Positions 10,448 to 31,215 of a stretch of 32,007 bases of DNA are shown here, piece after piece. Numbering within the stretch: the first letter of the stretch is position 1; each line of letters starts with the position of its first letter. The stretch comes from a virus, in the IMG/VR virus record IMGVR_UViG_3300049855_000380, positions 1 through 32,007 of that record; one strand, written 5' to 3'. The notes under the pieces were generated by a model. It was not told where the DNA came from, searched no databases, and was given only the letters and a program-made list of their open reading frames with translations. A program made the position numbers and the translations under genes.

Positions 10448-11731
10448 ATGGGCGATCCCCGCTCAGACTGGAAACAGAAGATGCAGGAACGGGCGAAGGA
10501 GAAAGCCTCGGGGAAGAGCTTCAAGCTTCCCGAGGGCGATACTACCTTCCGCGTTCTTCCGAACGCAAACGGGATGGACAAATCCCCGCTTTACGAGTTC
10601 ATGGTTCACCGTGAAGTCGGACCGAAAGGGCGGCTCGTCCGTTGCGGCAAATCGCTAACGGGCAAGGGCCGTTGCTGGCTTTGCGATGTCATGATCCCGA
10701 AGCTCCGCGACTCCGGCAATTCCATCAAACGGAAGAAAGCGGAAGAGATGGTCGCTAAGGAAAACATGGCCGCGCAAGTCGCCGTCATGAATACGAAGAC
10801 GGGCAAGCTCTCCGGTCCGCTTCTCTTCTATGTCCCGACGGGCGGCGCGAACGCCTTCGGAACGAAGCTGATGACGCTCCTCGCGCGTGATGGCCGGAGC
10901 TACGAGCATCCGAAGAAGGGAAAGAATCTCACGGTGAACCGTACCGGGACAGGAATGAAAGATACTCGTTACGGTCCTATCGAAATGGACGACGAGCCGA
11001 GCGTGGTTCCGTCGGAAATCATCGAGAAGCTCAAGCCCTTCAACGAACTCGTTAGCGCCTACGATGAGGAGTTCATGAAGAACACCTTCTTCGGCAAGGA
11101 AACCGCCCGCGATGACTCGCGCGGCAAAGCCTCGCGCGACGACGACGATGACGACGATGACCGTCCGAAGCGCGGCAAGCGTTCGCGCGACGACGACGAC
11201 GACGACGACGGCGATCCTGATGACGATGACGACCGTCCGAAGCGCGGCAAGCGCCGCGACGACGATGACGGCGACGACGACGACGACGACAAGCCGAAGC
11301 GTGGCAAGCGTCGCGACGACGACGATGACGATGACGACGATGATGACCGCCCCAAGCGCGGCAAGCGTTCGCGTCACGATGATGACGATGACGATGACGA
11401 CGGCGGCGGCGGCGACGACGACGACGATGACAACGGCGACGACGACGATGACGACGATGACCGTCCGAAGCGCGGCAAGCGTTCGCGCGACGACGACGAC
11501 GACGACGACGACGGCGATCCTGATGACGACGACGGCGACGGCGACGGCGATCCCGATGACGACGACGACGACCCGCCGAAGAAGCCGGGCAAGCCGGGCA
11601 AGTCGGGCAAGGCTCCCGCGAAGAAGGCGGAGCCTCCCAAGAAGCCGGGCAAGGCTTCCGCTCCTCCGAAGGGAGGCAAGCCGCCGGGAAAGTCCGGCAA
11701 GGCCGCGACGAAGAAGACGGGGAAGAAGTAG
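10448..11731 (+). CDS. gp32-type ssDNA-binding protein with long charged tail
   Basis: A 427-residue protein. The first 230 residues form the ssDNA-binding core, with zinc ligands His54-x11-Cys66-x9-Cys76-x2-Cys79, almost the spacing of T4 gp32 (His64-x12-Cys77-x9-Cys87-x2-Cys90). Residues about 231-427 are disordered and very unusual: runs of 4-11 Asp alternate with five RPKRGKR-like basic blocks, then a Lys/Pro/Gly/Ala tail. gp32 has a short acidic tail that recruits replication proteins, so this may be an enlarged version. The Shine-Dalgarno sequence AAAGGAG ends 10 bases before the start. A tetraloop hairpin follows the stop, and RecA comes next. Confidence 0.85.
   Translation: MGDPRSDWKQKMQERAKEKASGKSFKLPEGDTTFRVLPNANGMDKSPLYEFMVHREVGPKGRLVRCGKSLTGKGRCWLCDVMIPKLRDSGNSIKRKKAEEMVAKENMAAQVAVMNTKTGKLSGPLLFYVPTGGANAFGTKLMTLLARDGRSYEHPKKGKNLTVNRTGTGMKDTRYGPIEMDDEPSVVPSEIIEKLKPFNELVSAYDEEFMKNTFFGKETARDDSRGKASRDDDDDDDDRPKRGKRSRDDDDDDDGDPDDDDDRPKRGKRRDDDDGDDDDDDKPKRGKRRDDDDDDDDDDDRPKRGKRSRHDDDDDDDDGGGGDDDDDDNGDDDDDDDDRPKRGKRSRDDDDDDDDGDPDDDDGDGDGDPDDDDDDPPKKPGKPGKSGKAPAKKAEPPKKPGKASAPPKGGKPPGKSGKAATKKTGKK
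11136..11210 (+). repeat. 75-bp exact direct repeat, first copy
   Basis: Identical to 11436-11510, exactly 300 bases downstream, inside the SSB tail. It encodes an Asp run, one RPKRGKRSR block and the start of another Asp run. Beyond it, the copies differ by a three-base insertion and then stay similar. Confidence 0.9.
11436..11510 (+). repeat. 75-bp exact direct repeat, second copy
   Basis: Second copy of the in-frame repeat in the SSB tail. Both copies sit within a GAC/GAT-rich low-complexity tract running from about 11139 to 11570, which is prone to expansion, contraction and assembly error. Confidence 0.9.
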
Positions 11732-11773: not shown

Positions 11774-11787
11774 CCTCGTGAGGAATT

Positions 11788-12714
11788 ATGAAGAAAAAGC
11801 AGATCAAGACACCATCGGGGATCAACCCCGTCTCCTTCGTCGATCAGGTCCGCACTCGGCTCGGGCGGAAGGCGAACTCGCAACGAGAGCTAACCTACTT
11901 GAACCTCCGCGACGATCATCTAAATTCCGTTCTCGGCGATCCGAAGCTCGGTCTCTTCTATGGGCAGATAGTCGAAATCAGCGGCAAACAATCCAACGGG
12001 AAGAGCGCCCTCGCCTACGACATCGCGGCGCTCGCGCAATCGGAAGGGGCGTTTGCTCATTGGATAGACTTCGAGCGTTCTTATAACGAATCATGGGCCG
12101 CGCGTCGCGGTCTCGATTCCGAGAAGGTGAACCTCTTTCAGCCTTACGTTGGCAAGTTCAAGGGGGAAAAAGATTCCCGGCTATGCACCGCTCAGGAGCT
12201 TCTCGAAGAAGCCGAAGCCGTTCTTGTCGAGGTTCATCAGCGCTTTCCCGCCGCGAAACAAATCCTCATCCTCGACAGCGTCGGCGCGATGCTCGTCGAA
12301 GAAGAAGCCGAGGCCGGGCTTACAGGGCAGAACATGAGAACCAATGCCGCCCTTCCGGTTATGCTCGGGAAACTCCTCCGGCGATGGATCGGGATTCTCG
12401 GCGAAGTCAACTGTATCGGTATATTCCTGAACCAACTCCGCACTAAACCGGGGATGATGTTCGGCGATCCCGATTACACCATGGGCGGAAACGCCCTTCC
12501 CTTCTACGCTCACTCTCGCGCTCGCATGCGCCGCGTGAAGGGCGGGCGCGTTCTTCAGAAGGGGAAAGTCGTCGGGATTAAGGGAATCCTCCGCAACGAC
12601 AAGAACAAGGCGGGCGGCGTCGAGGGTCACGAGATCGGTTTCAAAATAATGTTCAATGGCGCGTCGAAGTTCTTCGATGCCGCCGAGTTTCGTGAGGAGG
12701 AGCCTAAGAAGTAG
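11788..12714 (+). CDS. RecA/UvsX-type recombinase
   Basis: A 308-residue strand-exchange ATPase. The Walker A motif is GKQSNGKS (66-73), the catalytic acid lies in WIDFE (Glu97), and Walker B is ILILDSVG (Asp164). The NQLR segment at 216-219 marks the end of the L2 region. After it comes a GNALPFYAHSRARMRR segment, as in RecA-family proteins. It is a little shorter than E. coli RecA (353) and lacks much of its C-terminal domain. It should drive homologous recombination and recombination-dependent replication together with the gp32-like SSB and the SbcCD fusion. GAGGA lies close before the ATG, inside a TTCCTC/GAGGAA dyad. Confidence 0.92.
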   Translation: MKKKQIKTPSGINPVSFVDQVRTRLGRKANSQRELTYLNLRDDHLNSVLGDPKLGLFYGQIVEISGKQSNGKSALAYDIAALAQSEGAFAHWIDFERSYNESWAARRGLDSEKVNLFQPYVGKFKGEKDSRLCTAQELLEEAEAVLVEVHQRFPAAKQILILDSVGAMLVEEEAEAGLTGQNMRTNAALPVMLGKLLRRWIGILGEVNCIGIFLNQLRTKPGMMFGDPDYTMGGNALPFYAHSRARMRRVKGGRVLQKGKVVGIKGILRNDKNKAGGVEGHEIGFKIMFNGASKFFDAAEFREEEPKK

Positions 12715-13050: not shown

Positions 13051-14022
13051 ATGGGGAGTACTCTCGCCGTTGCCATGCGTCCGCGCACCTTCGCCGACGT
13101 GATCGGGCAGGATGACACGATTAACGCGCTCCGGGCGCAATGGGCTTCGGGCCGCGTCCCTTCCGGCGTTCTCTTCTCCGGCGATCCGGGAACGGGGAAG
13201 ACGACACTCGCGAAGATCCTCGCGGCTAGCGTGCAAGCGCCGGACAAATTCGGCACGCCGCCGCCCGAGATATGGGATGAGTGGGGCGCGTATCCCATAC
13301 GCGAGACCAACGCCGCCAAGGAACGCGGGATCGACGAGATCCGGCGGCTCGTCGAAGAGGCGACGTATTCGCCGCCGCTCGGCATGACGCGCGTCTTCAT
13401 CCTGAACGAGGCTCAGAAGCTCACACCGGAAGCGCAAGAGGCTTTGCTCATCCCGGTCGAGGAAGGCGGGCCGGGCGTGTTGTGGATCATCGCAACATCC
13501 GCGCCGGGCAAGCTCTCCGCCGCTCTCCGCCGCCGCTTCATCGCCTATCAGCTACGACCGCTCGGGCCGGACGACATCGAGACACTCATCAAGCGGGCCG
13601 CGAAGCTTGTGAAGTTCAAGGCGGACCTTACTCCATTCTTCGGCGTCGTCGCCGAGCATAACGTCACGTCGCCGGGCGTTCTTCTGAATGCCTTCGAGAA
13701 GTTCGCCGTCGGCGTCCCGCCTCGTAAAGCGATCCTTGCGGGCGACACAACGCTCGACTACATCACCGGGGCGCGTGCATTCGTGGCGGGCGACTGGCGT
13801 ACCGTCCGGGGCTTTCTGCAAAGCGCCGACATTGAGACGACGAAGGGCTTCCGCTTGATGCTCCTCGCCTACTTGCGGACGATGCTCCTCGGCGGGACCA
13901 ACTCCGCCAAGTGTGCCGACGCTATCGCAATCCTCGGCGTAACGACGCCATACGACGACACCTTCGCCGCATGGTTCGCCGCCGCCGCTTATCAATCAAT
14001 CCAACTCTTCCGCGCGAAGTAG
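13051..14022 (+). CDS. AAA+ clamp loader ATPase
   Basis: A 323-residue protein of the DnaX/RFC/gp44 type that should open the sliding clamp and load it on DNA. The N-terminal RPRTFADVIGQ is the family's opening motif. Walker A is GDPGTGKT (44-51). Walker B reads VFILNEAQ, with Asn119-Glu120 in place of the usual Asp-Glu. Sensor 1 follows as WIIATS (145-150), then an LRRRFIAYQLRPL segment. A helical collar region fills the C-terminal third. Only this one loader subunit is visible. ATG 13051 is chosen because it follows the previous stop directly; 13075 is a possible alternative. Confidence 0.9.
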   Translation: MGSTLAVAMRPRTFADVIGQDDTINALRAQWASGRVPSGVLFSGDPGTGKTTLAKILAASVQAPDKFGTPPPEIWDEWGAYPIRETNAAKERGIDEIRRLVEEATYSPPLGMTRVFILNEAQKLTPEAQEALLIPVEEGGPGVLWIIATSAPGKLSAALRRRFIAYQLRPLGPDDIETLIKRAAKLVKFKADLTPFFGVVAEHNVTSPGVLLNAFEKFAVGVPPRKAILAGDTTLDYITGARAFVAGDWRTVRGFLQSADIETTKGFRLMLLAYLRTMLLGGTNSAKCADAIAILGVTTPYDDTFAAWFAAAAYQSIQLFRAK

Positions 14023-14041
14023 TCGTTCGCGAGACTCAGAC

Positions 14042-14054
14042 GTTCCCGAGGAAC
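14042..14054 (+). promoter_or_regulatory. Small hairpin over the SbcCD ribosome-binding site
   Basis: GTTCC pairs with GGAAC around CGA, covering the GAGGA that precedes the ATG at 14058. A second 6-bp hairpin (CGCGAA/TTCGCG, 14013-14031) spans the stop of the clamp loader gene. Together they may tune translation of the nuclease gene. Confidence 0.35.
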
Positions 14055-14057
14055 AAA

Positions 14058-16880
14058 ATGAAAATTCTATTCTCGTCCGATTGGCAAGTACAGGCGTCGA
14101 ACTTCCCGCAAATCGACGCCGTGACCGAAGAGATCGTCGAGGCGATCAAGACGCAAGGGATCGACGCGTTCGTTCATTGCGGCGACATCAAGCATACGAT
14201 CAACCCAATTGACGGGCGCGTCATCAACAAGACGCTTGCAGCGATCACCCGAATTCAGAAGGCCGGGGCGGAGGTATTCTTTAACCTCGGCAATCACGAC
14301 AAGCTCGCGATGTCGGAAGACGCCGCGAATTGGTTCGAGCCGTTCCGCCGTATTGGGGTTCACGGGATGGATACGCCGGGCTTCTTGCGGCTTTCCGGGC
14401 GCGGGCCGGAGTTCCGCCTCTTCTTCCTTCCCTACATGAGCGCCGGGCATACCCTCGCCGCCGCCGACGCGTTCCGCCGCGACAAGCCGACGCCGAAGGA
14501 TTCCGCGCTCGTGTTTCATACGAGCATCACAAAGGCGAAGATCAACACGCGCCGCGTCTATGAAGGGGAGGACGCGATCCCGCTCGCCGAGCTTCTCCCT
14601 ACTCGCTATATGGCCGTGATCGGCGGACACTTCCATATGCAACAGCAACTAGGGCCGAACGCTTACTATGTCGGGAGTCCGTTCCCTACCGATTGGGGCG
14701 AGGCAAATCAGGCGAAGGGTTATCTTATCCTCGACACGAAGACCGGGAAGGTTACGCCGCTCGCCTCGAACATTCCGCAATGGTTTGATCCCACTTGGCC
14801 GGGCTTCACCGCGCCGCAATCATGGGCGGGCGCGAGCGTTCGGATTCATGTCCCCATCGCGAAGGACGAGACCAACGTCGGAGCCGTCATCAAGGCCGCG
14901 ACGCTCAAGGCGGAGGCGAAGTATAAAGGGGCGCATATCGTCGCCGTTCCCGAAGTGAAGAGCCGCAAGGTGGAGGAGGAAGAACTCGGAATAGATGAAG
15001 ACTCCGACGACTCGGAAGTCATCCGCGCATGGCTCGCCGCCTCCCGCCCGGACGAACTCGCCGCCGATGAAGCGAAGCTCCTCGCCTACCTGAAGTATCA
15101 CCTTCAACAAGTCGCGGGAATCACCCGCTCGCGCTCGGGCTTTCAGCTTCACACGCTCACCGCCGCGAATATGCTTTCGTTCGAGAAGCTCTTCATCGAC
15201 TATCGAAAGCCGAAGGGCTTGCGGCTTATTTCCGGGGAAAACGAAGATTGGCCGGGCCGCTCGAACGGCTCCGGCAAGTCGAGCTACTTGCAACTTCTCG
15301 CCGTCATCTTGACCGGGCGGAGCCTCAAGGGGCAACGCGCGGACGCCCTACGGCGTCGCGGGATGCCGGACAAGGGGGAATCATGGGGGAAGCTCACCGG
15401 GAAGCTTGGCGACGGGCGTATGCTCGAAATCTACCGGGGCCGGAAGCCGAAGGGCGTCTTCCTCAAGCTCGATGGAAAGGACGCCTCGACCGGGATCGGG
15501 GAAGACGGTGTTAATGCGGAGATCGAACGGCTCACGGGGATCTCGGCGGACACCCTCGCGAACGCGATCTTCATGGATCAGCGGGACTTGAACGGGCTTC
15601 TCTCCGGCAAGGATGCCGACAGGAAGCGGATCTTCGCGAGCTTCGCAAACTTGGAACGATTCGAGAAGGCGCTCAAGACGCTCAAGGCGGAACGCGACAA
15701 GGCGAGCGACGCCGCCGAGATGATTGAGCGTGACATGGAAGTATTTGAAGGCAACGTCGAGCAACTCATGGGCTTCCTCGCGACGCTACGGAAGAAGTCG
15801 GAGTCCGACGCCGCCGCCGCGAAGGAGCAACTCGCCGCCGCCCGGAAAGAACTTGACGCCGCCAAGCGCGACGAACTCGGCAAAAGGGAAGCCGTCACTG
15901 TAGCGAAGAAGGAAGAGGAGCGCCTCGGCGCGAAAGTCGATAAGGCGTATGACGCCGCCGCCGCCATAGAAACGCAATGGGAGGAGCGCGAGCGGGAGCT
16001 TCAACGCTTCACGAGCCGGAACAAGGCCGGACAGGTTTGCTCATTCTGTCAGCAAAAGATTTCCGCGCAAACCGTTGAGCGCCACACGAAAGAGATTCGC
16101 GACGCGATGAAGAAGCTCGCCGCCGAACTGGTAGGGCCGAAGGCGAAGCTCCGCGCGTGCAAGAAGGACCTAGAGACGGCTACCGCCGCGCGGGAGAAAG
16201 CGGAGAAAGTTCATCGCGCGAGTTCGGACCGCCGAAGCCGCGCGTCGGCGACGGTGGAGCAAGCCGAGCGCCGCGTCGAAGAGGCAACCGCGCCAACGGA
16301 GGAGGAGGCGGAATATCGGAAGAAGCTCAAGAAAGCCGAGGCCGATCTCCGCGCCGAACGGAAGGCGCTCAAGGCCGCGAAGCATGAGCTACTCTTTACG
16401 ACCTTCGCCGTCCGCGCCTTCGCCAAGGACGGCGTCCCCGCCTACATTGCGGGCCTATTCTGTCCCCGCTTGAACGCCTCCGCCGCCTACTACTCGCAAC
16501 TCTTCGGAGACGGGGAGATCGCCGTCGAGTTCCGCATGGACGGGGAGGACATCGCTATCGACATTGTGAACCCCAACGGCGGGGAGCGTCTCGGCGATCA
16601 ATCCAACGGAGAGACGCGCATCGCGTCGCATATCGTGAGCTTTGCTCTATGCGATCTTCTGTCACCGTTGAATGTCCTCTTCGCCGACGAGCCGGGCGAA
16701 GGACTCGACGAAGTCAACGCCCGGCAATTCGCGAAGGGTCTTCGCGAAATGGTCTCCCGGTTCAGTACAGTATTAGTTACGACACACAACCCGTTCATTC
16801 TTGCGGAGCTTTCCGACGTTCCGCAAGTCGTCGTTACAAAACGGAACGGGATCAGTAGTGTTACGAGCAAATCCTCATGA
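14058..16880 (+). CDS. Fused SbcD-SbcC (Mre11-Rad50) nuclease-ATPase
   Basis: A 940-residue protein that joins two normally separate subunits, T4 gp47 and gp46. Residues 1 to about 340 are a metallophosphoesterase with CGDIKH (Asp43), LGNHD (79-81), FHTS and GGHFH motifs. The first motif is DWQ instead of the usual DxH, so one metal ligand is altered. From about 370 an SMC-like ATPase begins: Walker A NGSGKSS with Lys407, a coiled coil with a zinc hook CSFC (Cys661, Cys664) near its middle, signature QSNGE (848-852), Walker B LFADE (Asp877, Glu878) and a late TTHNPF. The start follows GAGGA. It should process DNA ends for recombination. Confidence 0.93.
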   Translation: MKILFSSDWQVQASNFPQIDAVTEEIVEAIKTQGIDAFVHCGDIKHTINPIDGRVINKTLAAITRIQKAGAEVFFNLGNHDKLAMSEDAANWFEPFRRIGVHGMDTPGFLRLSGRGPEFRLFFLPYMSAGHTLAAADAFRRDKPTPKDSALVFHTSITKAKINTRRVYEGEDAIPLAELLPTRYMAVIGGHFHMQQQLGPNAYYVGSPFPTDWGEANQAKGYLILDTKTGKVTPLASNIPQWFDPTWPGFTAPQSWAGASVRIHVPIAKDETNVGAVIKAATLKAEAKYKGAHIVAVPEVKSRKVEEEELGIDEDSDDSEVIRAWLAASRPDELAADEAKLLAYLKYHLQQVAGITRSRSGFQLHTLTAANMLSFEKLFIDYRKPKGLRLISGENEDWPGRSNGSGKSSYLQLLAVILTGRSLKGQRADALRRRGMPDKGESWGKLTGKLGDGRMLEIYRGRKPKGVFLKLDGKDASTGIGEDGVNAEIERLTGISADTLANAIFMDQRDLNGLLSGKDADRKRIFASFANLERFEKALKTLKAERDKASDAAEMIERDMEVFEGNVEQLMGFLATLRKKSESDAAAAKEQLAAARKELDAAKRDELGKREAVTVAKKEEERLGAKVDKAYDAAAAIETQWEERERELQRFTSRNKAGQVCSFCQQKISAQTVERHTKEIRDAMKKLAAELVGPKAKLRACKKDLETATAAREKAEKVHRASSDRRSRASATVEQAERRVEEATAPTEEEAEYRKKLKKAEADLRAERKALKAAKHELLFTTFAVRAFAKDGVPAYIAGLFCPRLNASAAYYSQLFGDGEIAVEFRMDGEDIAIDIVNPNGGERLGDQSNGETRIASHIVSFALCDLLSPLNVLFADEPGEGLDEVNARQFAKGLREMVSRFSTVLVTTHNPFILAELSDVPQVVVTKRNGISSVTSKSS

Positions 16881-17305
16881 AGAAAATTGTCATAGTAGGC
16901 GCGAGACATCTTGGATGGGAGGACGGCATCGAGGCGCGGGATCAAACCGGAAGCCCGGAAGCCGCCCGCATTGTCCAGCAAATCCTAGCGGGGATATGGG
17001 AAACGCATGGGCCTTACGCCTACGTCGTTTCCTTGAGCGCCGATCTCGGCTTCGGTCGAAGCGTCCGGGAAGCGACACTCCGCGCCGGACTCGGGTTCGC
17101 CGAAGTCACGATCCGCACTTCGGACCTCGTCCCGAAGGGAGAGCGTGAGCTTCTATGGCTCGCCCGGCACGCCGCCCTCGTTGAGATCGGCGACGAGTTC
17201 CATGTCTTCCTATCGTCCGGTCATTCGCAAATGAGCGATCTCATCGCGCGACTCGGGCAATCTAACAAACCTTGGAAATCGTATGCAATCAAAACAACGC
17301 GCTAG
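16877..17305 (+). CDS. Rossmann-like unknown protein, possible SLOG fold
   Basis: A 142-residue protein starting in an ATGA overlap with the SbcCD gene. It opens with KKIVIVGARHLGW, a strand-glycine-rich-turn pattern. SADLGFGRSVREATLRAGLGFAEV and SSGHSQMSDLIARLG follow, an order of elements like that of SLOG/YspA nucleotide-binding proteins. The match is loose and I would not name a ligand. There is no Shine-Dalgarno sequence; the start follows TCCTC and probably depends on translational coupling. Confidence 0.7.
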   Translation: MKKIVIVGARHLGWEDGIEARDQTGSPEAARIVQQILAGIWETHGPYAYVVSLSADLGFGRSVREATLRAGLGFAEVTIRTSDLVPKGERELLWLARHAALVEIGDEFHVFLSSGHSQMSDLIARLGQSNKPWKSYAIKTTR

Positions 17306-17516
17306 CCTCGGCGGGAAGGCCGTCGTCGCACGTTACGGGCGGGCCGGGATGTCTAACCTCGGCAAGATCGGCGGACTCGTTACCTCCCTCCGCTACGGTC
17401 AAGAGCATATGAGCGCCATTCGCACGAAGGCGCATCGAGACAACCCGAAGCCGCCGGAATACTACCGCGCAATTGCGAAGCTCCCGCGTCCCTCCCGAAG
17501 AAAGTCCTCCTCATGA
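17283..17516 (+). CDS. Small basic protein with GGK/KIGG repeats
   Basis: A 77-residue basic protein whose middle reads SLGGKAVVARYGRAGMSNLGKIGG. The two glycine-containing repeats recall the short KGG repeats of stress-associated proteins, but the match is weak. It overlaps the previous gene by 23 bases and the next by four (ATGA), and ends RRKSSS like the HNH protein. Function unknown. Confidence 0.6.
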   Translation: MQSKQRASLGGKAVVARYGRAGMSNLGKIGGLVTSLRYGQEHMSAIRTKAHRDNPKPPEYYRAIAKLPRPSRRKSSS

Positions 17517-18034
17517 ATAATCGAAGAATCGGCTCGACGTTCGAGCGCATCGTCTCGAAGGAAATTGTTAAGGCGTGCAAGGACATCGGCGCGACGCAGA
17601 AAGACTGCTACCGGACGCCGCTCTCCGGCGGGCATCCCTTCGGGGACCGGGGCGATCTCGTCGTTTCGCCGCTTCTCGCTCCCTTCCTTCCGTTCAGCGT
17701 CGAGTGTAAGACCTCGCGCCGATGGACGCCGGGAAACATGTTCACACCGGGCGAGATGGAGAAGAAATGGATCGCGCAAGTCCGCAAGTCCGCCGGGAAG
17801 ACGCTCTTCCCGATGCTCGTGATGCGAGGCTTTCGGACCGACATCTTCGTCGCTCTTCAGGAGCCGGACTTCAAACGCTATTTTGAGAACACCCGTCCGC
17901 GTATCGACCTACGCTTCATCGTCGGGGGGAGCACCGCCGACGTTTGGCGTATGGTTCCCTTCGATACCTTCCTCCGCGCGTTGCGGGATCGCGCCAAAGC
18001 CAACAACACCATCACCGTAAAAGGAAAGCCATGA
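17513..18034 (+). CDS. PD-(D/E)xK nuclease, Holliday-resolvase-like
   Basis: A 173-residue protein with the core of the restriction-endonuclease-like fold: GSTFER (Glu11), a SGG...GDRGDLVV segment with Asp48, and VECK with Glu64 and Lys66. This order and spacing fit archaeal-type Holliday junction resolvases and related phage nucleases. With RecA and SbcCD nearby, resolving recombination or replication branches before packaging is a reasonable role. Substrate specificity cannot be seen. It starts in an ATGA overlap, preceded by TCCTCCTC rather than a Shine-Dalgarno site. Confidence 0.75.
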   Translation: MNNRRIGSTFERIVSKEIVKACKDIGATQKDCYRTPLSGGHPFGDRGDLVVSPLLAPFLPFSVECKTSRRWTPGNMFTPGEMEKKWIAQVRKSAGKTLFPMLVMRGFRTDIFVALQEPDFKRYFENTRPRIDLRFIVGGSTADVWRMVPFDTFLRALRDRAKANNTITVKGKP

Positions 18035-18561
18035 TCCAGACTGAAAACTTCTTCCTCAAGAACCGCAACGCCTCGCACGCCGAGGAGTTCGCCGTTACCG
18101 TTACGCTCGACGGCAAGCCTTCGCCGCTCGGCTACGTTCTCACGCCGGAGCAAATGAAGGCGATCTTCGCCGTTGCTTTCGACTTCTTCACGAACACACC
18201 GAACGATGTCCTCCTCCGCGACGGGAACGCCTTCAACGTCCTCCGCTACATCATGAACTTGACGAGCCGCCTCGTCACCGGAGAGCCGATCTCCGGGCTT
18301 TCGATCTCGATTCAGGGCAAGGACAGCATCACCCGCTCGCTCGCGATCCCGCATCGTTTCGACGCCGCGCTCATCAACGGAGCCGATAATCTTTGGATGC
18401 CGATGAGCGAAGAAGAGGCCGTCGCGCGTCTCGGGGATCGCGTCGGCTACTATCACGACGCCGCCCGCAAGCTCTCCGAGATGCGCCGGGCCGTCACCGA
18501 AGAGATCAACAAGTTCCGCGCGTCGCACCGTGGGACCGGGGGAGCCGTCTCGCTCGGCTAA
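18031..18561 (+). CDS. Unknown protein upstream of the vWA gene
   Basis: A 176-residue protein that I do not recognise. The N-terminal half has alternating strand-like segments (EFAVTVTLDGK, YVLTPEQMKAIFAVAFDFF); the C-terminal 50 residues are helical and basic. It starts in an ATGA overlap with the nuclease gene after AAAGGA. It is the last gene before a 124-base regulatory gap, and read-through from it would enter the large hairpin before the vWA gene. Confidence 0.7.
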   Translation: MIQTENFFLKNRNASHAEEFAVTVTLDGKPSPLGYVLTPEQMKAIFAVAFDFFTNTPNDVLLRDGNAFNVLRYIMNLTSRLVTGEPISGLSISIQGKDSITRSLAIPHRFDAALINGADNLWMPMSEEEAVARLGDRVGYYHDAARKLSEMRRAVTEEINKFRASHRGTGGAVSLG

Positions 18562-18573
18562 CAAAAACACCTT

Positions 18574-18609
18574 AGTACTATTGCTTTCCTCCTCCTGATA
18601 GTTTACGCT
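18574..18609 (+). promoter_or_regulatory. AGTACTATTGC element, copy a
   Basis: AGTACTATTGC is followed by TTTCCTCCTCCTGA. Read as a promoter, TTGCTT (18582-18587) is followed after 16 bases by TACGCT (18604-18609), four bases before an ATG at 18614. That ATG is in frame with the vWA gene and would give a form 24 residues longer. Confidence 0.45.
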
Positions 18610-18683
18610 GAACATGTCGGCGGGAATGCCGTTCCCCGATTCCGGCTTCAAGCAGCGTATAACTATCAGGAGGAAACTTTTTT
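18590..18683 (+). promoter_or_regulatory. 19-bp hairpin with T6: SD sequestration or attenuator
   Basis: Bases 18590-18608 pair with 18655-18674 over 19 base pairs, with one bulged T at 18660. The loop is 46 bases. The right arm holds the GGAGG ribosome-binding site of the vWA gene and the whole GCGTATAACTA element. Three bases after the stem come six T (18678-18683). RNA reading through from upstream would hide the binding site and might terminate. RNA started at the internal promoter lacks the left arm. Confidence 0.75.
18655..18665 (+). promoter_or_regulatory. GCGTATAACTA promoter element, copy 4
   Basis: Exact 11-mer inside the right arm of the hairpin. Unlike most copies it is followed by a Shine-Dalgarno sequence (AGGAGG) and an ATG 20 bases downstream. 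Initiation would fall in or just before AGGAGG, so the leader would be short. Confidence 0.75.
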
Positions 18684-18685
18684 CT

Positions 18686-19690
18686 ATGATTGACTTGGAT
18701 AATCTCGGAGGCGCTCTCGTGCCGACGGGCAAGAAGGGCGGAGACATCGAATTTTCGGCTCCCTCCGCGATGGTCTTCCGCACGGTGGAGGACACCTATA
18801 GCGCCTTGACTAAGCGCGTTTACGTGGTCGATAAGTCCGGCTCGATGGACAATTATCTCCTCGGCATGGAAACGGTCGATGAATTCAATTGGCCGGACGA
18901 TGCCCTCGCCCGCGCTCGCGCTCGTATTCAGGAAGCGCTCGGGCGCATCGCCGCATTACAGGCGAACGGGCAAGCGTCGCCGGGGATCGACGAAGACTTC
19001 ATCGGGGCGCTTACGCTTGAGCAGACGGATGCTATCTGGAAATCCTTCGTCTCGCACAATGACGAACTTCTCAAGGCGGAGATTGTCGCCTATGGCTTGA
19101 CCGGGGAGATCGGCGTCATGCGTAAACCCGCGTACCGCTCTCACGCGATGTTCTCGAAGATGGAGGGCGTCAAGCGGTTCGCCGCCGACATGATCCGGGA
19201 ACGGCACGAAGCGCACCCGGACGCCGACACCCATCTCATCGCCTTCGATCTCTCCGCTTACTATGCGCCGCCGGGCGACGTGGAGCAACTCATCGGGCAA
19301 GTCGAAGAGCTTCACGCCGACGGCATCGACACCAACATCGGATGCGCCGTGGAAGCCGCTATCGACCTATGCGAGCGGGAAGCGAGTCCGGTCAACGTGC
19401 ATCACATTATCCTCGTGACCGACGCGCTCGACACGAAGGCCGGGGAAGCCGTCGCGCCGATGGTCCCGATCATGCAAGCGCGGAACATCGTCCTCGATTT
19501 CATCCACGTTATCAGCTTGAACGAGCTTGTCCATGCGGAGAACTCATGGAAGCGCCTCAAGGAGTATTGCATCATGACGGGCGGCTCCTACACGCGCGTA
19601 GATCGCGCCGCGTCTTTCCGGGCGCGGTTTGTCGAAGCCTCGCGGAAGGTCCTTCTCCTCGGAGCGCCGGACCCGAAGGGATTGAAATAA
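18686..19690 (+). CDS. vWA-domain protein
   Basis: A 334-residue protein with a von Willebrand factor A fold. The metal-ion-dependent adhesion site is visible as VVDKSGSM (Asp49, Ser51, Ser53), a Thr in DGIDTNIG and an Asp in LVTDALD. Such proteins make metal-dependent protein contacts and often work with an AAA+ partner; no MoxR-type partner lies nearby. The start at 18686 has AGGAGG 12 bases upstream. An in-frame ATG at 18614 would add 24 residues encoded by the promoter and Shine-Dalgarno DNA, which is less likely as the main form. Its role in infection is unknown. Confidence 0.8.
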   Translation: MIDLDNLGGALVPTGKKGGDIEFSAPSAMVFRTVEDTYSALTKRVYVVDKSGSMDNYLLGMETVDEFNWPDDALARARARIQEALGRIAALQANGQASPGIDEDFIGALTLEQTDAIWKSFVSHNDELLKAEIVAYGLTGEIGVMRKPAYRSHAMFSKMEGVKRFAADMIRERHEAHPDADTHLIAFDLSAYYAPPGDVEQLIGQVEELHADGIDTNIGCAVEAAIDLCEREASPVNVHHIILVTDALDTKAGEAVAPMVPIMQARNIVLDFIHVISLNELVHAENSWKRLKEYCIMTGGSYTRVDRAASFRARFVEASRKVLLLGAPDPKGLK

Positions 19691-19696
19691 TCGCAA

Positions 19697-19734
19697 AGCT
19701 GTATTGCGAAAATTTTCCTCCTGAGGAATACTAT
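19697..19734 (+). promoter_or_regulatory. AGCTGTATTGC element, copy b
   Basis: A variant of the AGTACTATTGC element followed by TTTTCCTCCTGAGGAA. TTGCGA (19705-19710) and TACTAT (19729-19734) are 18 bases apart, with the ATG four bases further on. The TTCCTC/GAGGAA dyad lies in the spacer. Confidence 0.45.
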
Positions 19735-19738
19735 CCCT

Positions 19739-20737
19739 ATGAATACTTCCGCCGGACGCCCTTCGATTAAGGAACTAGAGTCCAAGCTCGCCGCCTACAT
19801 CAACATTCACCGGAACGCCCGGCTCGCGGCGCTCGGCTCCATTCTCGAATGGTACGAGCGTTCTGTCCCAACGGCGCGGGCGAGGTTCGCCGCCGAGGAT
19901 GAGATGCGTTACCAGAAAGCGCTACGCGTTCGCTCCTCGGGACTTGGAGCGGGCCGGACCGACGAGGAGCGGGAGACCGCCTATCTGATGGTCATTCGCT
20001 TGTTCGAGCGCGTGATGGTTCGCTTCGGCGTTGACCGCCCGATAGACGAATACCTCACAAAGCTCGAAAGCCGCCGCCGGGAACTGGAAGAGCGGGAAGC
20101 CCGCGTCCGGGCGCGATACGCTCATCTCGTCAATGGGCTTCAATCGGTGTTCGCTCCCTTCGGCGTCAAGTTCGAGCTAGCGCCCGACGCCCGGCTCCCG
20201 CGCACCTTCGACGCCAACAAGACGATTCACTTCAGCGTGGATTATGCCGAGGAATTGATTCAGGCGCTCGCGGTGAACGGCGTCTTCGGCGTTGCTATCG
20301 GGGAGATCATGCCGCTTGTTTGTAAGGCGCTCTCTATCGAGACCGACTCGAACGGTAAGGCCGCGATCTCGGCTTCCCTGATGGGAGAGAATCTCTCGAA
20401 GCTCGCCGTCCACACGGTTCAGTTCGTCATGGCGAACGCCGCTCAGATTCAGAAGTCCGCTATACCGCTTCCTAATGTTCCTCCTCCTGATGAAGATGTT
20501 AAGATGAAGAACATATGGTATCGCGGCAAGATGGCGAAGGTCTTCGAGTTCCTTCTCGCTTGCGAAGGAACAACGCACGTCAACACCATTCGGGAGATCG
20601 TTCCCGAAGCCGCCGACATCACGCGCATGCTTGGACTCATCGCCGAACAGGGCGACAAGCTAGGCTTGTGGAAACTGAAAAAGTACCGTAACGGCTATGT
20701 CGAATTCACTTGGATCGGCGAGCCTAAGAAAGCATAA
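19739..20737 (+). CDS. Unknown 332-residue protein
   Basis: Not recognised. Residues about 40-130 are strongly helical and charged and may form a coiled coil (YLTKLESRRRELEEREARVRA). A hydrophobic helical middle follows. The last 65 residues, MAKVFEFLLACEGTTHVNTIREIV...DKLGLWKLKKYRNGYVEFTW, resemble a winged-helix domain. The start has GAGGA 11 bases upstream and a TACTAT hexamer between. It is followed at once by a histone-like gene whose C-terminus also resembles a winged helix, so the two may act together on DNA. Confidence 0.75.
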   Translation: MNTSAGRPSIKELESKLAAYINIHRNARLAALGSILEWYERSVPTARARFAAEDEMRYQKALRVRSSGLGAGRTDEERETAYLMVIRLFERVMVRFGVDRPIDEYLTKLESRRRELEEREARVRARYAHLVNGLQSVFAPFGVKFELAPDARLPRTFDANKTIHFSVDYAEELIQALAVNGVFGVAIGEIMPLVCKALSIETDSNGKAAISASLMGENLSKLAVHTVQFVMANAAQIQKSAIPLPNVPPPDEDVKMKNIWYRGKMAKVFEFLLACEGTTHVNTIREIVPEAADITRMLGLIAEQGDKLGLWKLKKYRNGYVEFTWIGEPKKA

Positions 20738-20751
20738 GGAGAACTAATACT

Positions 20752-21294
20752 ATGATCGAGACAACGAAAGCCGCGCCGTCCTCGACGCCGCCGCCCGAGC
20801 CAAAGGGGAAAGGAACCGGACCCGCCGAGAACAAGGGACCGACTCCGCCGCCCGCCAAGAAGGGCGAGGAACCGCCCAAGAAGGCCGCTCCCGCCGCCGA
20901 AGCCGCGCCGCCGAAGGCCGGGAAGGGGAAAGACAAGGGGACGCCGCCGAAAGCCGCTCAGAAGGCCGCTAAGAAGGCCGCGAAGAAGGCGGCTCCCGTG
21001 AAGAAGGCCGCTCCCGCGAAGAAGGCCGCGACGCCCTCGCCGTCGAAGCTCCCCGCGATCCCGCCGCCAAGTAAGCCGCTCTTCCGGTCCGGCTCCATGT
21101 TCGACGCCGTCTTCGTGCGTCTCCTCACCGGGAAAGAGTTCACCATCATGGAACTTTTCGCGGGCTTGAACGTCGCCGATCCGTCGCGCGTGTTCCAGCA
21201 TATCAAGCAACGGGGCGACATCTCCGGCGCGTACCGCGTGGATCGCACGGGGCCGGGCCGCGTTAAGATGACGGTGAAGCCCAAGAAGGCTTAG
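20752..21294 (+). CDS. Histone-H1-like tail plus possible winged-helix domain
   Basis: A 180-residue protein in two parts. Residues 1 to about 105 are a disordered Pro/Lys/Ala region with KKAAPVKKAAPAKKAA repeats, like linker histone or bacterial H1-like proteins. Residues about 112-178 look like a small winged-helix domain (MFDAVFVRLLTGKEFTIMELFAGL, then VFQHIKQRGDISGAYRV and a basic strand). Together these suggest a DNA-compacting or regulatory DNA-binding protein. The leader AAGGAGAACTAATACTATG is nearly the same as that of the SSB gene, suggesting strong translation. Confidence 0.75.
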   Translation: MIETTKAAPSSTPPPEPKGKGTGPAENKGPTPPPAKKGEEPPKKAAPAAEAAPPKAGKGKDKGTPPKAAQKAAKKAAKKAAPVKKAAPAKKAATPSPSKLPAIPPPSKPLFRSGSMFDAVFVRLLTGKEFTIMELFAGLNVADPSRVFQHIKQRGDISGAYRVDRTGPGRVKMTVKPKKA

Positions 21295-21310
21295 GATCGA
21301 ATCCCTCCGA

Positions 21311-21386
21311 TCCCGAGCGGGCGCTCCTCGAAGGTTATCCCGGCGGGCGATTGGCGCATCACCCGCCGAGACCCTTCGGGGCGCTC
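21311..21386 (+). other. Structured intergenic segment
   Basis: Within the 148-base gap after the histone-like gene, CGAAGG pairs with CCTTCG and flanking GCGC or CGAGCG bases pair with CGCTCG. Inside this lies CGGCGGG paired with CCCGCCG. It may be a terminator, an RNA leader or a processing signal. A tRNA was considered and rejected. Confidence 0.4.
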
Positions 21387-21400
21387 GAAAGAAATCGTAA

Positions 21401-21436
21401 AGTACTATTGCATTCTTCCTCCTGAAGGAGTAGGCT
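21401..21436 (+). promoter_or_regulatory. AGTACTATTGC element, copy c
   Basis: AGTACTATTGC, then TTCCTCCTGA. TTGCAT (21408-21413) and TAGGCT (21431-21436) are 17 bases apart, and the GTG start lies six bases further. AAGGAG (21425-21430) in the spacer could serve as a ribosome-binding site for RNA from upstream. Confidence 0.5.
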
Positions 21437-21442
21437 CAACTC

Positions 21443-21805
21443 GTGGACATCTCGAACTCAAAAGGTAAATACACCAACGCCGTTAATCAGTTCTCGAAGC
21501 TGAAAGACATGATCCGCCAATCGAGCGGGCCGGAGGCGCTCGCCGCCATCATGGACCCGACGAGCAAGCTACTTCATCACCGGAGCGAACTCGTTCGCGA
21601 CGTGGTTATCTGTGAAGTTCAAGCCGTCATCGAAGAGGAAGCCCTCCGCTTCATCAACATGACGAAGGAAGAACGGGAGAGCGCCGCCCGGTTCCTCGCC
21701 GATAACCCGGTCAAGTATTTGAACCGCCTATCGAAAACAATTTGTGAGCGGGCGAAGGTCATGCCTGTCGGGAACAAGCTCGGGGCGATCATAGACTCGC
21801 TATGA
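21443..21805 (+). CDS. Unknown 120-residue helical protein, GTG start
   Basis: Not recognised. It is largely helical, with a VRDVVICEVQAVIEEEALRFINMTKEERESAARF segment in the middle. The GTG start is supported by AAGGAG 12 bases upstream and by the AGTACTATTGC element placed as before other genes. It overlaps the next gene by ATGA. It opens the region of small unknown genes. Confidence 0.7.
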   Translation: MDISNSKGKYTNAVNQFSKLKDMIRQSSGPEALAAIMDPTSKLLHHRSELVRDVVICEVQAVIEEEALRFINMTKEERESAARFLADNPVKYLNRLSKTICERAKVMPVGNKLGAIIDSL

Positions 21806-22056
21806 GCGTCTACCGAGTCAAGGCCGGGACGCGCGTGAGCGTCGCCGTTCGCGATCAAGCCTCACGGGACGATATCACCGTTCCGAACGACCTTTACTTC
21901 GACGAGCGCGAACTTCGCGCCGGGCGGAAGGGGCTTCACACCTTCGAGTTCCTCCGCGCCGACATCAGTATCATCGTCCTCCGCCGCAACGTCGTCACCC
22001 TCACGCGGAAGCCGCCGCTTCCGTTCCTCGTTCGCAAGCCCGCCCGAGTGGACTAG
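21802..22056 (+). CDS. Unknown 84-residue beta-rich protein
   Basis: Not recognised. Short strand-like segments alternate along the chain (YRVKAGTRVSVAV, ISIIVLRRNVVTLT) and the ends are basic. It starts in an ATGA overlap with the previous gene. The normal codon pattern and overlap support it as a gene. Confidence 0.65.
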   Translation: MSVYRVKAGTRVSVAVRDQASRDDITVPNDLYFDERELRAGRKGLHTFEFLRADISIIVLRRNVVTLTRKPPLPFLVRKPARVD

Positions 22057-22068
22057 TACCCCGACGGC

Positions 22069-22097
22069 TTGATTTAGTTTGCTCGTCAGTTTACCCT
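22069..22097 (+). promoter_or_regulatory. Possible sigma70-type promoter
   Basis: TTGATT (22069-22074) and TACCCT (22092-22097) are 17 bases apart in the 64-base gap before the next gene. The -10 is poor. A Shine-Dalgarno AAGGAGA follows. This is the only promoter-like signal in this gap. Confidence 0.35.
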
Positions 22098-22120
22098 TAA
22101 CAAGGAGAGAACGCGTCTAC

Positions 22121-22669
22121 ATGCGTATCAATGTCATTGAGTGGCAGATTCTTCGATGGCTCCTCGATCCGATCAGGAGCTACACCGTATCGAAGGAAGG
22201 CCGGGCGTATTTCCTGAACACGGACGGACGCCGGGCGACGCGGGAAGCCGAACGCGCCGCGATCTCGCTCGTCAAGAAGCATTGCGTCGTCCCCGACAAG
22301 TTCGGGAACCACTACCTCACGCCCGCCGGGGCGAGGCTTGCAGCGGGCGAGGCTCCCGCCGCGAAGCCGACGCCGCTCCCGACGCTCGACAAGTATGAGC
22401 GCGACTTTCTGAGAGACATGCAGCGGGACGAGAAACGAGCGCCGTTGAAATGGTATACGCCGCTCATGCTTGGCGGCTCGAACTCCTCCGAGCATAGCTT
22501 CACGTTGCGGAAGCTCGTCCTCCTCGGCTTCGTGGAGACCAAGCAACGAGGCCGCGCCGACGCTACCGCCCGCACGGGCCGCGCCGCCTATCCTCCGCCG
22601 GGCTTGTGGCGCGTTGCGCGAGGGAGCCGGGCGTATCGACTCACGGAGGCCGGGCGTAATGCCAAGTAA
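22121..22669 (+). CDS. Possible winged-helix protein
   Basis: A 182-residue basic protein. The first 75 residues (VIEWQILRWLLD...GRAYFLNTDG...YLTPAGARLAAG) and the last 70 (PLMLGGSNSSEHSFTLRKLVLLGFVETK...YRLTEAGR) each resemble a winged-helix unit: a helical part, then a short wing ending in a LTxAG turn. It may be a transcription regulator with a duplicated DNA-binding fold. ATG 22121 is preceded by AAGGAGA. The identification is by pattern only. Confidence 0.65.
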   Translation: MRINVIEWQILRWLLDPIRSYTVSKEGRAYFLNTDGRRATREAERAAISLVKKHCVVPDKFGNHYLTPAGARLAAGEAPAAKPTPLPTLDKYERDFLRDMQRDEKRAPLKWYTPLMLGGSNSSEHSFTLRKLVLLGFVETKQRGRADATARTGRAAYPPPGLWRVARGSRAYRLTEAGRNAK

Positions 22670-23186
22670 GAAGCCGAAGAAAGCGCCGCTCCCGCGCCGC
22701 TCAGTGGACACAAGCGGACTCCGGGAAGTTCCGATCCGCGTACAGACTCCCTTTGTGCGTTTCATGTCCTCGAAGTATTGGCTCTCCCTTCCGCTTGAAG
22801 CAATCGCGACATGCCTCGGCTTGAACGAGATCCGCTTTCGCGAGGACTATGTCGATCTCAAGTTTTTCTACGATTCCAAGAGTAAACTTCTTGCATTCGT
22901 TCCGCGTCTCCGCCCGCTCACCGCCGTCCGGCACGCCCGCACGCGCGGATGGGTGAAGGGCTTCTATCGACCGTCGTCGCCGCAACGCGTTTACTTTCAA
23001 ACGGAGGCGCTCCGCGTCCGCTTGGGGATCGCGTTCCGTAGCACCGTTACGTTACCCCTTTTCTTCGACGCCGAGAAGGGGCATCTCGGGGCGTTCGTGA
23101 AACTCCCCAAACCGAAACCGCCATCGAACAAAAGAAAGCCCGGCAAGACGCCGGGGACATCGAAAGGGAAGTATGCCAGTAAATGA
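22659..23186 (+). CDS. Unknown basic protein with Lys/Pro ends
   Basis: A 175-residue basic protein that overlaps the preceding gene by 11 bases. Both ends are rich in Lys and Pro. The middle (about 28-145) has strand-like segments such as YVDLKFFYDSKSKLLAFVPRL and QRVYFQTEALRVRLGI. It is not recognised. The Lys-rich tail overlaps the next start. Confidence 0.65.
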   Translation: MPSKKPKKAPLPRRSVDTSGLREVPIRVQTPFVRFMSSKYWLSLPLEAIATCLGLNEIRFREDYVDLKFFYDSKSKLLAFVPRLRPLTAVRHARTRGWVKGFYRPSSPQRVYFQTEALRVRLGIAFRSTVTLPLFFDAEKGHLGAFVKLPKPKPPSNKRKPGKTPGTSKGKYASK

Positions 23187-23400
23187 AGTTCTTACACGCT
23201 GGAAGTCGGAAGGAATCCGGCTCGTCGCTCTCGGCTACGCCGGGGATAACATCCTTCAACCCACACTCACGCCATACCGACAGGAGCCGTCTGAAGCCGC
23301 TCTTCGGGACAAGACGGCGATCATGAGTCTCACCGAAGCGGAAGAAGTATTCGCCGACTTCGCCGACATCGTCTTCAAGGTGAACGCCGCCCATGCCTAA
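23173..23400 (+). CDS. Unknown 75-residue protein
   Basis: Not recognised. Mildly acidic, with no motif. The start has AAAGGGA a few bases upstream and lies within the end of the previous gene (14-base overlap); the stop overlaps the following gene by eight bases. Gene packing is its main support. Confidence 0.6.
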   Translation: MPVNEVLTRWKSEGIRLVALGYAGDNILQPTLTPYRQEPSEAALRDKTAIMSLTEAEEVFADFADIVFKVNAAHA

Positions 23401-23668
23401 AGTCAAACGCTTTCGCCTCGGGCCGTGGCTCCTCCTCGTCTCCACTACCGCGCCGCGATCCTTCGGCTTGTACAATACGCGGGGCATTTGTCGGCTCTCC
23501 CTCACGCCTCAAGAGTTCCGCATCGGGCGCAATGGGGATAACACCATCATGGAAGAGAAGCTCCTCTTCGACGCCGCGCGGATCGGCTTCGAGGCCGGGC
23601 GTCACGACGAAGAGGAGCGCCGCTTCATCGAGAACCTCTTCGCCCGCGTCAACGAGAAATTGAAATGA
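23393..23668 (+). CDS. Unknown 91-residue protein
   Basis: Not recognised. Strand-like first half (FRLGPWLLLVSTT, FGLYNTRGICRLSL) and a charged helical second half (HDEEERRFIENLFARVNEKL). It overlaps both neighbours, the downstream one by ATGA. Confidence 0.65.
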   Translation: MPKVKRFRLGPWLLLVSTTAPRSFGLYNTRGICRLSLTPQEFRIGRNGDNTIMEEKLLFDAARIGFEAGRHDEEERRFIENLFARVNEKLK

Positions 23669-23931
23669 AAGCCATCGCGCAAACTTGCACCGTCACGCTT
23701 GAGATCGACCGGGAAACGATGATCGTTTTCTTGACCGCGTTCGGTGACGCGTCGAGCTATCGCATGGAACTAGCAGACGAAACGAAGGGGACCAACGTCG
23801 CCAAGCTTCACGAGTATCAAGCGAGAGTGTACGATCAGTTCCTCATGAGGATGTCGAAGTATCGCGACAATGTCCCCATGCGTTTCGAGGACGCCGTCGC
23901 CGCTCTTCATAAGCGCGGGGAGATCCAATGA
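23665..23931 (+). CDS. Unknown 88-residue protein
   Basis: Not recognised. It begins with strand-like CTVTLEIDRETMIVFLTAFG and continues as a charged helix. ATGA overlap with the previous gene, and its stop overlaps the start of a possible micro-ORF. Confidence 0.65.
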   Translation: MKAIAQTCTVTLEIDRETMIVFLTAFGDASSYRMELADETKGTNVAKLHEYQARVYDQFLMRMSKYRDNVPMRFEDAVAALHKRGEIQ

Positions 23932-23978
23932 ACCGACGGCAATCTCGCGAACTTGAGGAGCCGCCCGAATGTCGCTAA
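23928..23978 (+). CDS. Possible 16-residue coupling micro-ORF
   Basis: A 16-codon frame beginning in an ATGA overlap. It carries within it the GAGGAG ribosome-binding site of the next gene and ends ten bases past that gene's ATG. It may only carry ribosomes across the gap and may not make a useful peptide. Confidence 0.25.
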   Translation: MNRRQSRELEEPPECR

Positions 23979-24463
23979 TCGAGGACCCTCGCGCGACTAC
24001 GCTCCTCGAAGCGCCGCCCGGCGTTCCCGTGTCCGTTGTCATCGACTTGACTCCCTTTATGTACCCCTTTGGGAAGCAGATGACCATAACGGAGCAAGTC
24101 GCCGCATTCCTCCGGGACCGGATGCCGAATCTATGTCGAATGGACATTGCTTTCATCTTGTGGCTTCCGAAGACGGACTCGCTTTTCTTTAGCCGTACCC
24201 GGTTCACGCTTCCGCTCATCTTCGTCCGCCGCCTTTCGCTTTCCGAGGACGTGATTGACATATTCCCTCAGGTCTCCGAATACTGGCTTCGGCTCCGGTT
24301 CCCGGTCGAAGAAGAGGAGGAGATACTCAAGGGATTCTTTCCGGGCGAGGAGCCGCCGCTCGAACGCCGTAAGTTCTCGCGGGCCGCGCTCGCCGGGGCC
24401 GTCACGGTCTTCCCTCCCTCGCACCCTACGCGAGCGCCGCCCTTGACTTGGATCGTCACCTAA
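23969..24463 (+). CDS. Unknown 164-residue protein
   Basis: Not recognised. It has hydrophobic strand-like parts (VSVVIDLTPFMYPFG, FTLPLIFVRRLSL) followed by an acidic stretch and a Pro-rich end. GAGGAG stands eight bases before the ATG. It is the last gene before a 76-base gap with a strong hairpin. Confidence 0.65.
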   Translation: MSLIEDPRATTLLEAPPGVPVSVVIDLTPFMYPFGKQMTITEQVAAFLRDRMPNLCRMDIAFILWLPKTDSLFFSRTRFTLPLIFVRRLSLSEDVIDIFPQVSEYWLRLRFPVEEEEEILKGFFPGEEPPLERRKFSRAALAGAVTVFPPSHPTRAPPLTWIVT

Positions 24464-29669: not shown

Positions 29670-29855
29670 ATGAAGACGCGCCGCCCGGACGAACTCACAC
29701 AAGCGCAAAAGACCGCGCTATGCAGTACTGTGAAGAAGACCGGGCGGCGCTTCTTTCGTTCAACATGCTGCAAGTGTTTTCACCGGACGTTGCTCCTCGA
29801 ATGTCCGAAGTGTCATCACGGAATTTGTACCTCCTGTAAACCGTCATGGGATTAA
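29670..29855 (+). CDS. Small zinc-ribbon protein
   Basis: A 61-residue basic protein with Cys33, Cys34 and Cys36, then Cys45-x2-Cys48 and Cys53-x2-Cys56, a treble-clef or zinc-ribbon layout. The start has no good ribosome-binding site; it lies in the palindrome CTTCATGAAG six bases after the previous stop. Such small zinc proteins often bind nucleic acid or host proteins; the partner is unknown. Confidence 0.65.
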   Translation: MKTRRPDELTQAQKTALCSTVKKTGRRFFRSTCCKCFHRTLLLECPKCHHGICTSCKPSWD

Positions 29856-30045: not shown

Positions 30046-30051
30046 GGTGAA

Positions 30052-30088
30052 AGCACTATTGCAATCTTCCTCCTGAGGAGAGTACACT
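30052..30088 (+). promoter_or_regulatory. AAGCACTATTGC element, copy e
   Basis: A variant of AGTACTATTGC followed by TTCCTCCTGAGGAG. TTGCAA (30059-30064) and TACACT (30083-30088) are 18 bases apart and the ATG lies six bases further, the same layout as copies b and c. Confidence 0.5.
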
Positions 30089-30094
30089 TCCCCT

Positions 30095-30442
30095 ATGACA
30101 CGTCAAGAAAGAATGCAAGTCCTCGGACTGATGGGAGCCGCCGCCGAGTCCGCCGTCTACATGAGCAACTCGCGGGAAGCGCAAGAGCAACACGAGATCC
30201 TCGGCGACGCCCTCAGGGATACCGCGAAGATGCTCGGCGGGATTCGCGTCCGGCAAACCCTCCGCCGTTACGACATCGAAGTCGCCGAAGAGGAGACGCC
30301 CGCGCCGAAGATCGACGAGACCGATCATGTTCTATGCGCTTGCGGGCATCCCCGTTACTCGCATATGCGGGCGGAGGATAATTGCATCGTCGTCGCGCAT
30401 GGAGCGCGTTGTCATTGCGTAAGGTTCCGCGCCGCGTCATGA
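30095..30442 (+). CDS. Protein with C-terminal zinc-binding CxCGH motif
   Basis: A 115-residue protein. Residues 1-60 are helical. The C-terminal part has Cys81-x-Cys83-x-His85, His90, Cys97 and Cys106-x-Cys108, a pattern (CxCGH...H...C...CxC) common in small actinophage and other phage proteins and likely to bind zinc. Function unknown. It follows the AAGCACTATTGC element and ends in an ATGA overlap with a membrane-protein gene. Confidence 0.7.
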   Translation: MTRQERMQVLGLMGAAAESAVYMSNSREAQEQHEILGDALRDTAKMLGGIRVRQTLRRYDIEVAEEETPAPKIDETDHVLCACGHPRYSHMRAEDNCIVVAHGARCHCVRFRAAS

Positions 30443-31199: not shown

Positions 31200-31215
31200 C
31201 CTCATGAGGAATATC

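Follow-up and report, generated by a model that had tools for sequence, protein, structure and literature searches.

A 21-bp RNA hairpin, the arms of which carry two different promoter-like motifs (P1 and P2), was found directly upstream of the gene for a vWA-domain protein in a 32,007-nucleotide stretch of viral DNA (IMG/VR record IMGVR_UViG_3300049855_000380, positions 1 to 32,007; hereafter the window). The hairpin is real as a feature of the sequence and of its fold, and we give an even chance to the reading that it consists of two promoters and silences the vWA gene in read-through RNA. The features on which this reading is based are as follows, all on the + strand; G005 is a distant relative of the window.

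18581-18586, + strand: -35 element of P1, TTGCTT, with AGTACTA just before it; matches the P1 family and has a counterpart at the same place before the vWA gene of G005
18587-18603, + strand: 17-nt spacer of P1 with the TCCTCCTGA box, which recurs in the P1 spacers of three phages
18590-18610, + strand: left arm of the hairpin, consisting of P1 spacer and P1 -10 (RNA fold, inverted repeat)
18604-18609, + strand: -10 element of P1, TACGCT, placed by the alignment of P1 copies; predicted RNA start at about 18614-18616
18614-18685, + strand: short leader reading frame that begins at an ATG 4 nt downstream of the P1 -10, in frame with the vWA gene in the window
18653-18674, + strand: right arm of the hairpin, consisting of P2 and the Shine-Dalgarno sequence (RNA fold, inverted repeat), with a bulged U at 18660
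18655-18665, + strand: promoter-like P2 motif GCGTATAACTA, with -10 TATAAC at 18658-18663; predicted RNA start at about 18669-18671
18668-18673, + strand: Shine-Dalgarno sequence AGGAGG of the vWA gene, read from the sequence; in read-through RNA its unpaired probability was computed as 0.00
18678-18683, + strand: six consecutive T downstream of the stem, read from the sequence; possible intrinsic terminator tail
18686-19690, + strand: gene for the vWA-domain protein of 334 aa, starting MIDLDN, with weak Pfam VWA matches and a G005 homolog of 39% identity

Hairpin upstream of the vWA gene

Both by RNA folding and as an inverted repeat, 18590-18610 was paired with 18653-18674 over 21 pairs with the single bulged U, closing a loop of 42 nt that includes an inner hairpin. 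The preliminary description of this DNA had given the one bulge correctly and had understated the extent (19 pairs, 18590-18608 with 18655-18674). Folding of 18560-18700, which it had proposed as a check, yielded a strong structure of -48.5 kcal/mol (z -6.3; none of 200 shuffles equalled it), and in a sliding scan of structure significance over the whole window the hairpin was ranked first of 913 (z -6.8). Perfect 14-bp inverted repeats with arms at most 100 nt apart occurred once in the window, at the hairpin, vs a mean of 0.05 in 60 dinucleotide shuffles. The contents that had been assigned to the right arm, GCGTATAACTA and the Shine-Dalgarno sequence of the vWA gene, were both in place with the six T after them. 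Rfam and tRNA searches returned no matches. Next in significance within the window (z -5.5) was the fold at 29673-29755, an intergenic, terminator-like site with 27-nt arms of 78% complementarity followed by a T-rich stretch.

vWA gene, leader and neighbouring genes

The vWA protein was matched to Pfam VWA at E values of 2e-4 and 1e-3, which do not reach the curated cut-offs, and had no sequence match in the PDB and no NCBIfam or PHROG family. Its Shine-Dalgarno sequence lies 12 nt from the ATG at 18686, and recombination genes (SbcCD-like, RusA-like) are located upstream. In G005 the leader frame has 17 codons (MAGGFPAPLQSLEGAIC*), with its ATG at the same distance from P1, overlaps the vWA start, and is followed by AAGGAG and then by the vWA ATG; since the proteins begin with MIDLDN in the window and MLDLDN in G005, 18686 was taken as the conserved start. 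Among the other genes of the window, 6884-9748 encodes a family A DNA polymerase in which a uracil-DNA glycosylase-type domain at the N terminus is combined with a 3'-5' exonuclease domain, and 13911-16880 is one frame matching SbcD-like and SbcC-like families, an apparent fusion that is a single frame in G005 too. A long Asp-rich low-complexity repeat (GACGAC...) was seen at 11136-11600, within the 427-aa protein of 10448-11731.

Putative P1 promoter family and the left arm

P1 was discovered by a self-search in which 18574-18598 recurred at 21401, and the copy at 30050 was added by repeat analysis. The layout of the family is TTGCnT or TTGACA, a 17-nt spacer with TTCCTCC[T/G]GA or a close variant, and TAnnnT, after which the start codon follows at about 4-6 nt in the alignment of copies. 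About two dozen pattern matches were collected from three phages (the window, G002 and G005): those in the window are located at 18581, 21408 and 30059 (copy extents 18572-18613, 21399-21445 and 30050-30097), about a dozen precede genes in G002, and about seven are present in G005, several of them with a perfect TTGACA. With a -35 element, a 17-nt spacer, a -10 element and repetition before genes, P1 has the composition of a sigma-70-type promoter, and it is treated here as a putative promoter. It is common to phages between which no protein homology was detected (window and G005 vs G002) and is associated with near-leaderless starts.

Because the alignment of P1 copies puts the -35 element, spacer and -10 element at 18581-18586, 18587-18603 and 18604-18609, the left arm is the P1 spacer plus the P1 -10, and the 3' part of the TCCTCCTGA box forms the outer half of that arm. 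The left arm had been described as an inverted copy of the promoter and ribosome-binding site with one base deleted; it is better read as P1 spacer and -10, which recur in three phages. Nowhere else in the window than at 18581 and 18655 do P1 and P2 stand in tandem. Short repeats of the box plus AGGAG, at 21417 and 30068, were considered as local anti-Shine-Dalgarno hairpins and rejected; both lie within a P1 spacer, and this reading was dropped because the box and AGGAG precede the predicted RNA start.

Palindromes were also observed. A GTACTTTAGTAC / GTACTAAAGTAC palindrome upstream of the P1 -35 was seen in G002 copies (L012) and in G005 (L032:11045-11025, minus strand); we take it to resemble the cyanobacterial LexA box (RGTACnnnDGTWCB), and it could reflect control by a host DNA-damage regulator. 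TTCCTCnnGAGGAA-like palindromes stand just before other start codons of the window, at 11776-11790, 19711-19735 and 31200-31215, and may represent an operator of a related kind or what is left of a P1.

P2 motif in the right arm

The P2 motif GCGTATAACTA is the commonest 11-mer of the window when low-complexity repeats are set aside, with 8 exact copies, all on the + strand and each 3-20 nt before a start codon; the number expected by chance is 2.6 even if 2 mismatches are tolerated. Its core, CGTATAAC, is present in 14 copies in G005, where permuted 8-mers average 1.9; 7 of its copies stand 3-14 nt before an ATG, vs 0.25 for the permuted 8-mers. P2 is kept at three orthologous junctions, namely 5813/G005 60968 before the clamp gene, 9757/G005 57201/G006 L036:12725 before the gene after the polymerase, and 26660/G005 38108. 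Position and repetition together suggest that P2 is a promoter, and the distance from TATAAC to ATG, usually 5-10 nt, fits leaderless or nearly leaderless RNA. In a second class of P2 sites (31638, G005 33762, G005 30965 and 18655) AGGAG is found at the expected RNA start, and the first three of these have no P1 nearby.

The "late" timing previously given to P2 was not supported. The structural genes of G005 (terminase, portal, protease, capsid and tape-measure) are encoded on the minus strand at 1-20 kb. On that strand the P2 core was found at 21.9-65.9 kb and nowhere within the structural region, so that the capsid, portal, terminase and tape-measure genes have no copy on their coding strand. 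G005 P2 sites precede the clamp gene, other nucleic-acid-metabolism genes and uncharacterised genes. The T4-type late promoter (TATAAATA, gp55) was not found at the hairpin, where the motif is GCGTATAACTA.

Relatives of the window

Relatives were reached only via the P1 motif and via polymerase and UvsX alignments: G002 (IMGVR_UViG_3300049855_000139) by a pattern search of viral contigs and G005 (IMGVR_UViG_3300031922_000090) by a wider P1 pattern search. Neither blastn nor a search with the vWA protein gave a match among phages, and no match was obtained among viral contigs with vWA or polymerase as single queries; GGAGGAGCGTATAACTA gave none. The remaining pattern hits (L006, L008, L009, L013-L015 and L018) do not have the P1 layout and look like chance, as do the genome-contig hits L019-L028, from which the layout is likewise absent. 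G005 has more than 20 proteins in common with the window, in the same order and at 30-68% identity. In G002, P1 was present and no protein match to the window was found; G006 (L036) is syntenic, and a vWA match was not found on its contig. A second relative carrying the vWA gene was not found.

Upstream of the G005 vWA gene, P1 stands at the same place and aligns without gaps from AGTACTATTGC to the ATG; neither P2 nor a comparable hairpin (z -1.1) is present there, and the computed pairing of the Shine-Dalgarno sequence is about equal in read-through and P1 RNA. Absence of the arms from relatives had been named beforehand as evidence against a functional hairpin, and the hairpin is absent from G005, the single informative relative and a distant one (vWA 39%). 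Since P1 precedes the orthologous gene in G005, where P2 is lacking, P1 is probably older than the hairpin. In G005 a stretch of C and then one of T were seen just upstream of the vWA P1 (L032, about 11060-11081, minus strand), a possible terminator tail or sequencing artefact.

Complementarity of the arms and possible origin of the stem

The observed P1/P2 duplex was computed at -36 kcal/mol, whereas simulated pairs of P1 with P2 and Shine-Dalgarno sequence average about -19. When 20,000 P1/P2 pairs were simulated with the motifs held fixed, 0.05% reached -36 kcal/mol, and with the right arm fixed 0.02% did so (p 2e-4 to 5e-4 overall). The complementarity of the arms thus exceeds what the motifs impose, and the extra pairing is that of the P1 -10 region with P2. 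Among 816 pairings of P1 with gene starts the hairpin was the strongest, narrowly, with a runner-up at -35.7, in which the P1 pattern match is probably not a real promoter.

A possible origin follows from the composition of the arms. The TCCTCCTGA box of P1 would by nature pair with a Shine-Dalgarno sequence, and the remaining stem may have arisen after P2 and the Shine-Dalgarno sequence came downstream, either through template-switch correction or through selection for pairing; stems in RNA can be generated when the template is switched between imperfect inverted repeats (PMC8794818). If the silencer reading is true, two tandem promoters are half-way towards becoming a silencer, because the pyrimidine-rich spacer of a promoter can already pair with a Shine-Dalgarno sequence, and template switching can complete it.

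Proposed read-through silencing and alternative explanations

Under the silencer reading, RNA arriving from the upstream recombination genes would fold 18590-18610 onto 18653-18674 and mask the AGGAGG of the vWA gene, and the six U past the stem may also halt some polymerases. RNA from P1 (about 18614) or P2 (about 18670) would start past the left arm, so that the stem could not form, and would be translatable; the vWA protein would therefore be made when P1 or P2 fires and not on every transcription of the upstream operon. The preliminary description had included one escaping promoter; two putative ones were seen, and both the P1 -10 (18604-18609) and the P2 motif (18655-18665) predict RNA starts past the left arm, so RNA of neither would contain it. 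Its claim that the Shine-Dalgarno sequence is hidden agrees with the computed unpaired probabilities, which were 0.00 in read-through RNA (fully paired), 0.18 in P1 RNA and 0.15-0.25 in P2 RNA, gaps that are modest in absolute terms; a function of this hiding in cells is plausible. P2 RNA may be poorly translated, since its predicted 5' end falls within the Shine-Dalgarno sequence or at its margin, and that sequence lies 12 nt from the ATG. We infer the promoter roles of P1 and P2, the RNA starts, read-through, silencing in cells and termination from the sequence and its computed folds.

A more elaborate form of the silencer reading was also considered, in which the hairpin acts as a filter of start sites: the two promoter classes would be the two arms, the P1 spacer box would double as an anti-Shine-Dalgarno element, upstream RNA would be silenced and perhaps terminated, RNA of either promoter would be expressed, and P1 RNA would also give a leaderless, N-terminally extended vWA protein from the ATG at 18614. 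We regard this full scheme as tentative, with perhaps one chance in four.

The alternative that survives best, although we think it improbable at about one chance in five, is an operator at the DNA level, with TCCTCCTGA in P1 spacers and an inverted second copy, TCAGGAGGA, downstream of P2, so that one regulator would control P1 and P2 together and the RNA pairing would be a by-product. The box is conserved in the P1 spacers of three phages, mostly with no downstream Shine-Dalgarno sequence to pair with, and is therefore likely to be read as DNA; in G005 it is the near-palindrome TTCCTCCGGAA. However, the complementarity extends beyond the box to take in the P1 -10 and the P2 motif, a property absent from the other P1 copies, and the AGGAGG after P2 is already accounted for as a Shine-Dalgarno sequence, AGGAG being found after P2 also at 31638, G005 33762 and G005 30965, where no P1 is nearby.

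Still less probable to us is a mainly intrinsic terminator that would end upstream transcripts before the vWA gene, with the hiding of the Shine-Dalgarno sequence incidental. The stem is strong, six T follow within 1-3 nt, and a scan of 14000-24000 showed no other + strand terminator-like site at 18561-18686; yet the 42-nt loop far exceeds that of typical terminators (the hairpin itself was unlisted by the scan, which was limited to short loops), and a Shine-Dalgarno sequence inside the stem is unneeded for termination. An equally unlikely explanation is that template switching between two motifs of natural complementarity left the inverted repeat behind as a neutral product that regulates nothing. 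For it, the average of about -19 kcal/mol already attained by random P1/P2 pairs, the known ability of template switching to make stems (PMC8794818) and the absence of the hairpin from G005 can be cited, but a 21-bp stem over a Shine-Dalgarno sequence is expected to cut read-through translation, as in T4 (PMC3014915).

Comparison with known systems

Several phage systems resemble parts of the arrangement described here. In cluster K mycobacteriophages, the short SAS/ESAS motif stands before many start codons and has a suggested role in translation initiation, and about half of the sites are accompanied by an imperfect inverted repeat (PMC3203893). P1 shares the placement before starts; its sequence differs and it has clear -35 and -10 elements with a spacer box, and no homology is claimed. 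Cluster O mycobacteriophages have leaderless SigA-type promoters, the RNA of which is predicted from the first base of the start codon (PMC4351075); they are sigma-70-type like P1, to which the conserved spacer box is an addition.

For mobE of Aeh1 and segB of T4 (PMC2988022), the ribosome-binding site is likewise sequestered in RNA initiated upstream and a local promoter escapes. Unlike these mobile homing endonucleases, the vWA protein is not one, and its gene is syntenically conserved in a relative.

The closest precedents are the translation-initiation hairpins of the T4 genes e (lysozyme), soc, 49 and I-TevI (PMC3014915, PMC2988022), and the appeal of the preliminary description to T4 logic was well founded, e, soc and I-TevI being real cases. 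For T4 gene e, the DNA that encodes the 5' strand of the structure includes a late promoter (PMC3014915). As in e, soc, 49 and I-TevI, the Shine-Dalgarno sequence lies in a stem of the read-through RNA, here by computation (-48.5 kcal/mol, unpaired 0.00 in the longer RNA). In T4 a promoter just upstream gives RNA that lacks the 5' strand, and RNA of P1 and P2 is predicted to start past that strand here; as in the e leaders, a putative escaping promoter is in the 5'-strand DNA, here P1. Conservation in relatives, a further mark of the gene e type, was not seen in the one distant relative, G005, and the searches made showed no T4-like relationship of this phage. Unlike the T4 cases, both arms here carry promoter motifs, of two types, P2 in the 3' strand being an addition, and the gene encodes a vWA-domain protein in a recombination/replication module. 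P1 and P2 have thereby been brought to light as repeated promoter-like families of uncultured phages, with near-leaderless starts. If the silencer reading is true, T4-style silencing of read-through RNA arose in a phage group not linked to T4 by the searches made here, and a simple route to such hairpins is suggested.
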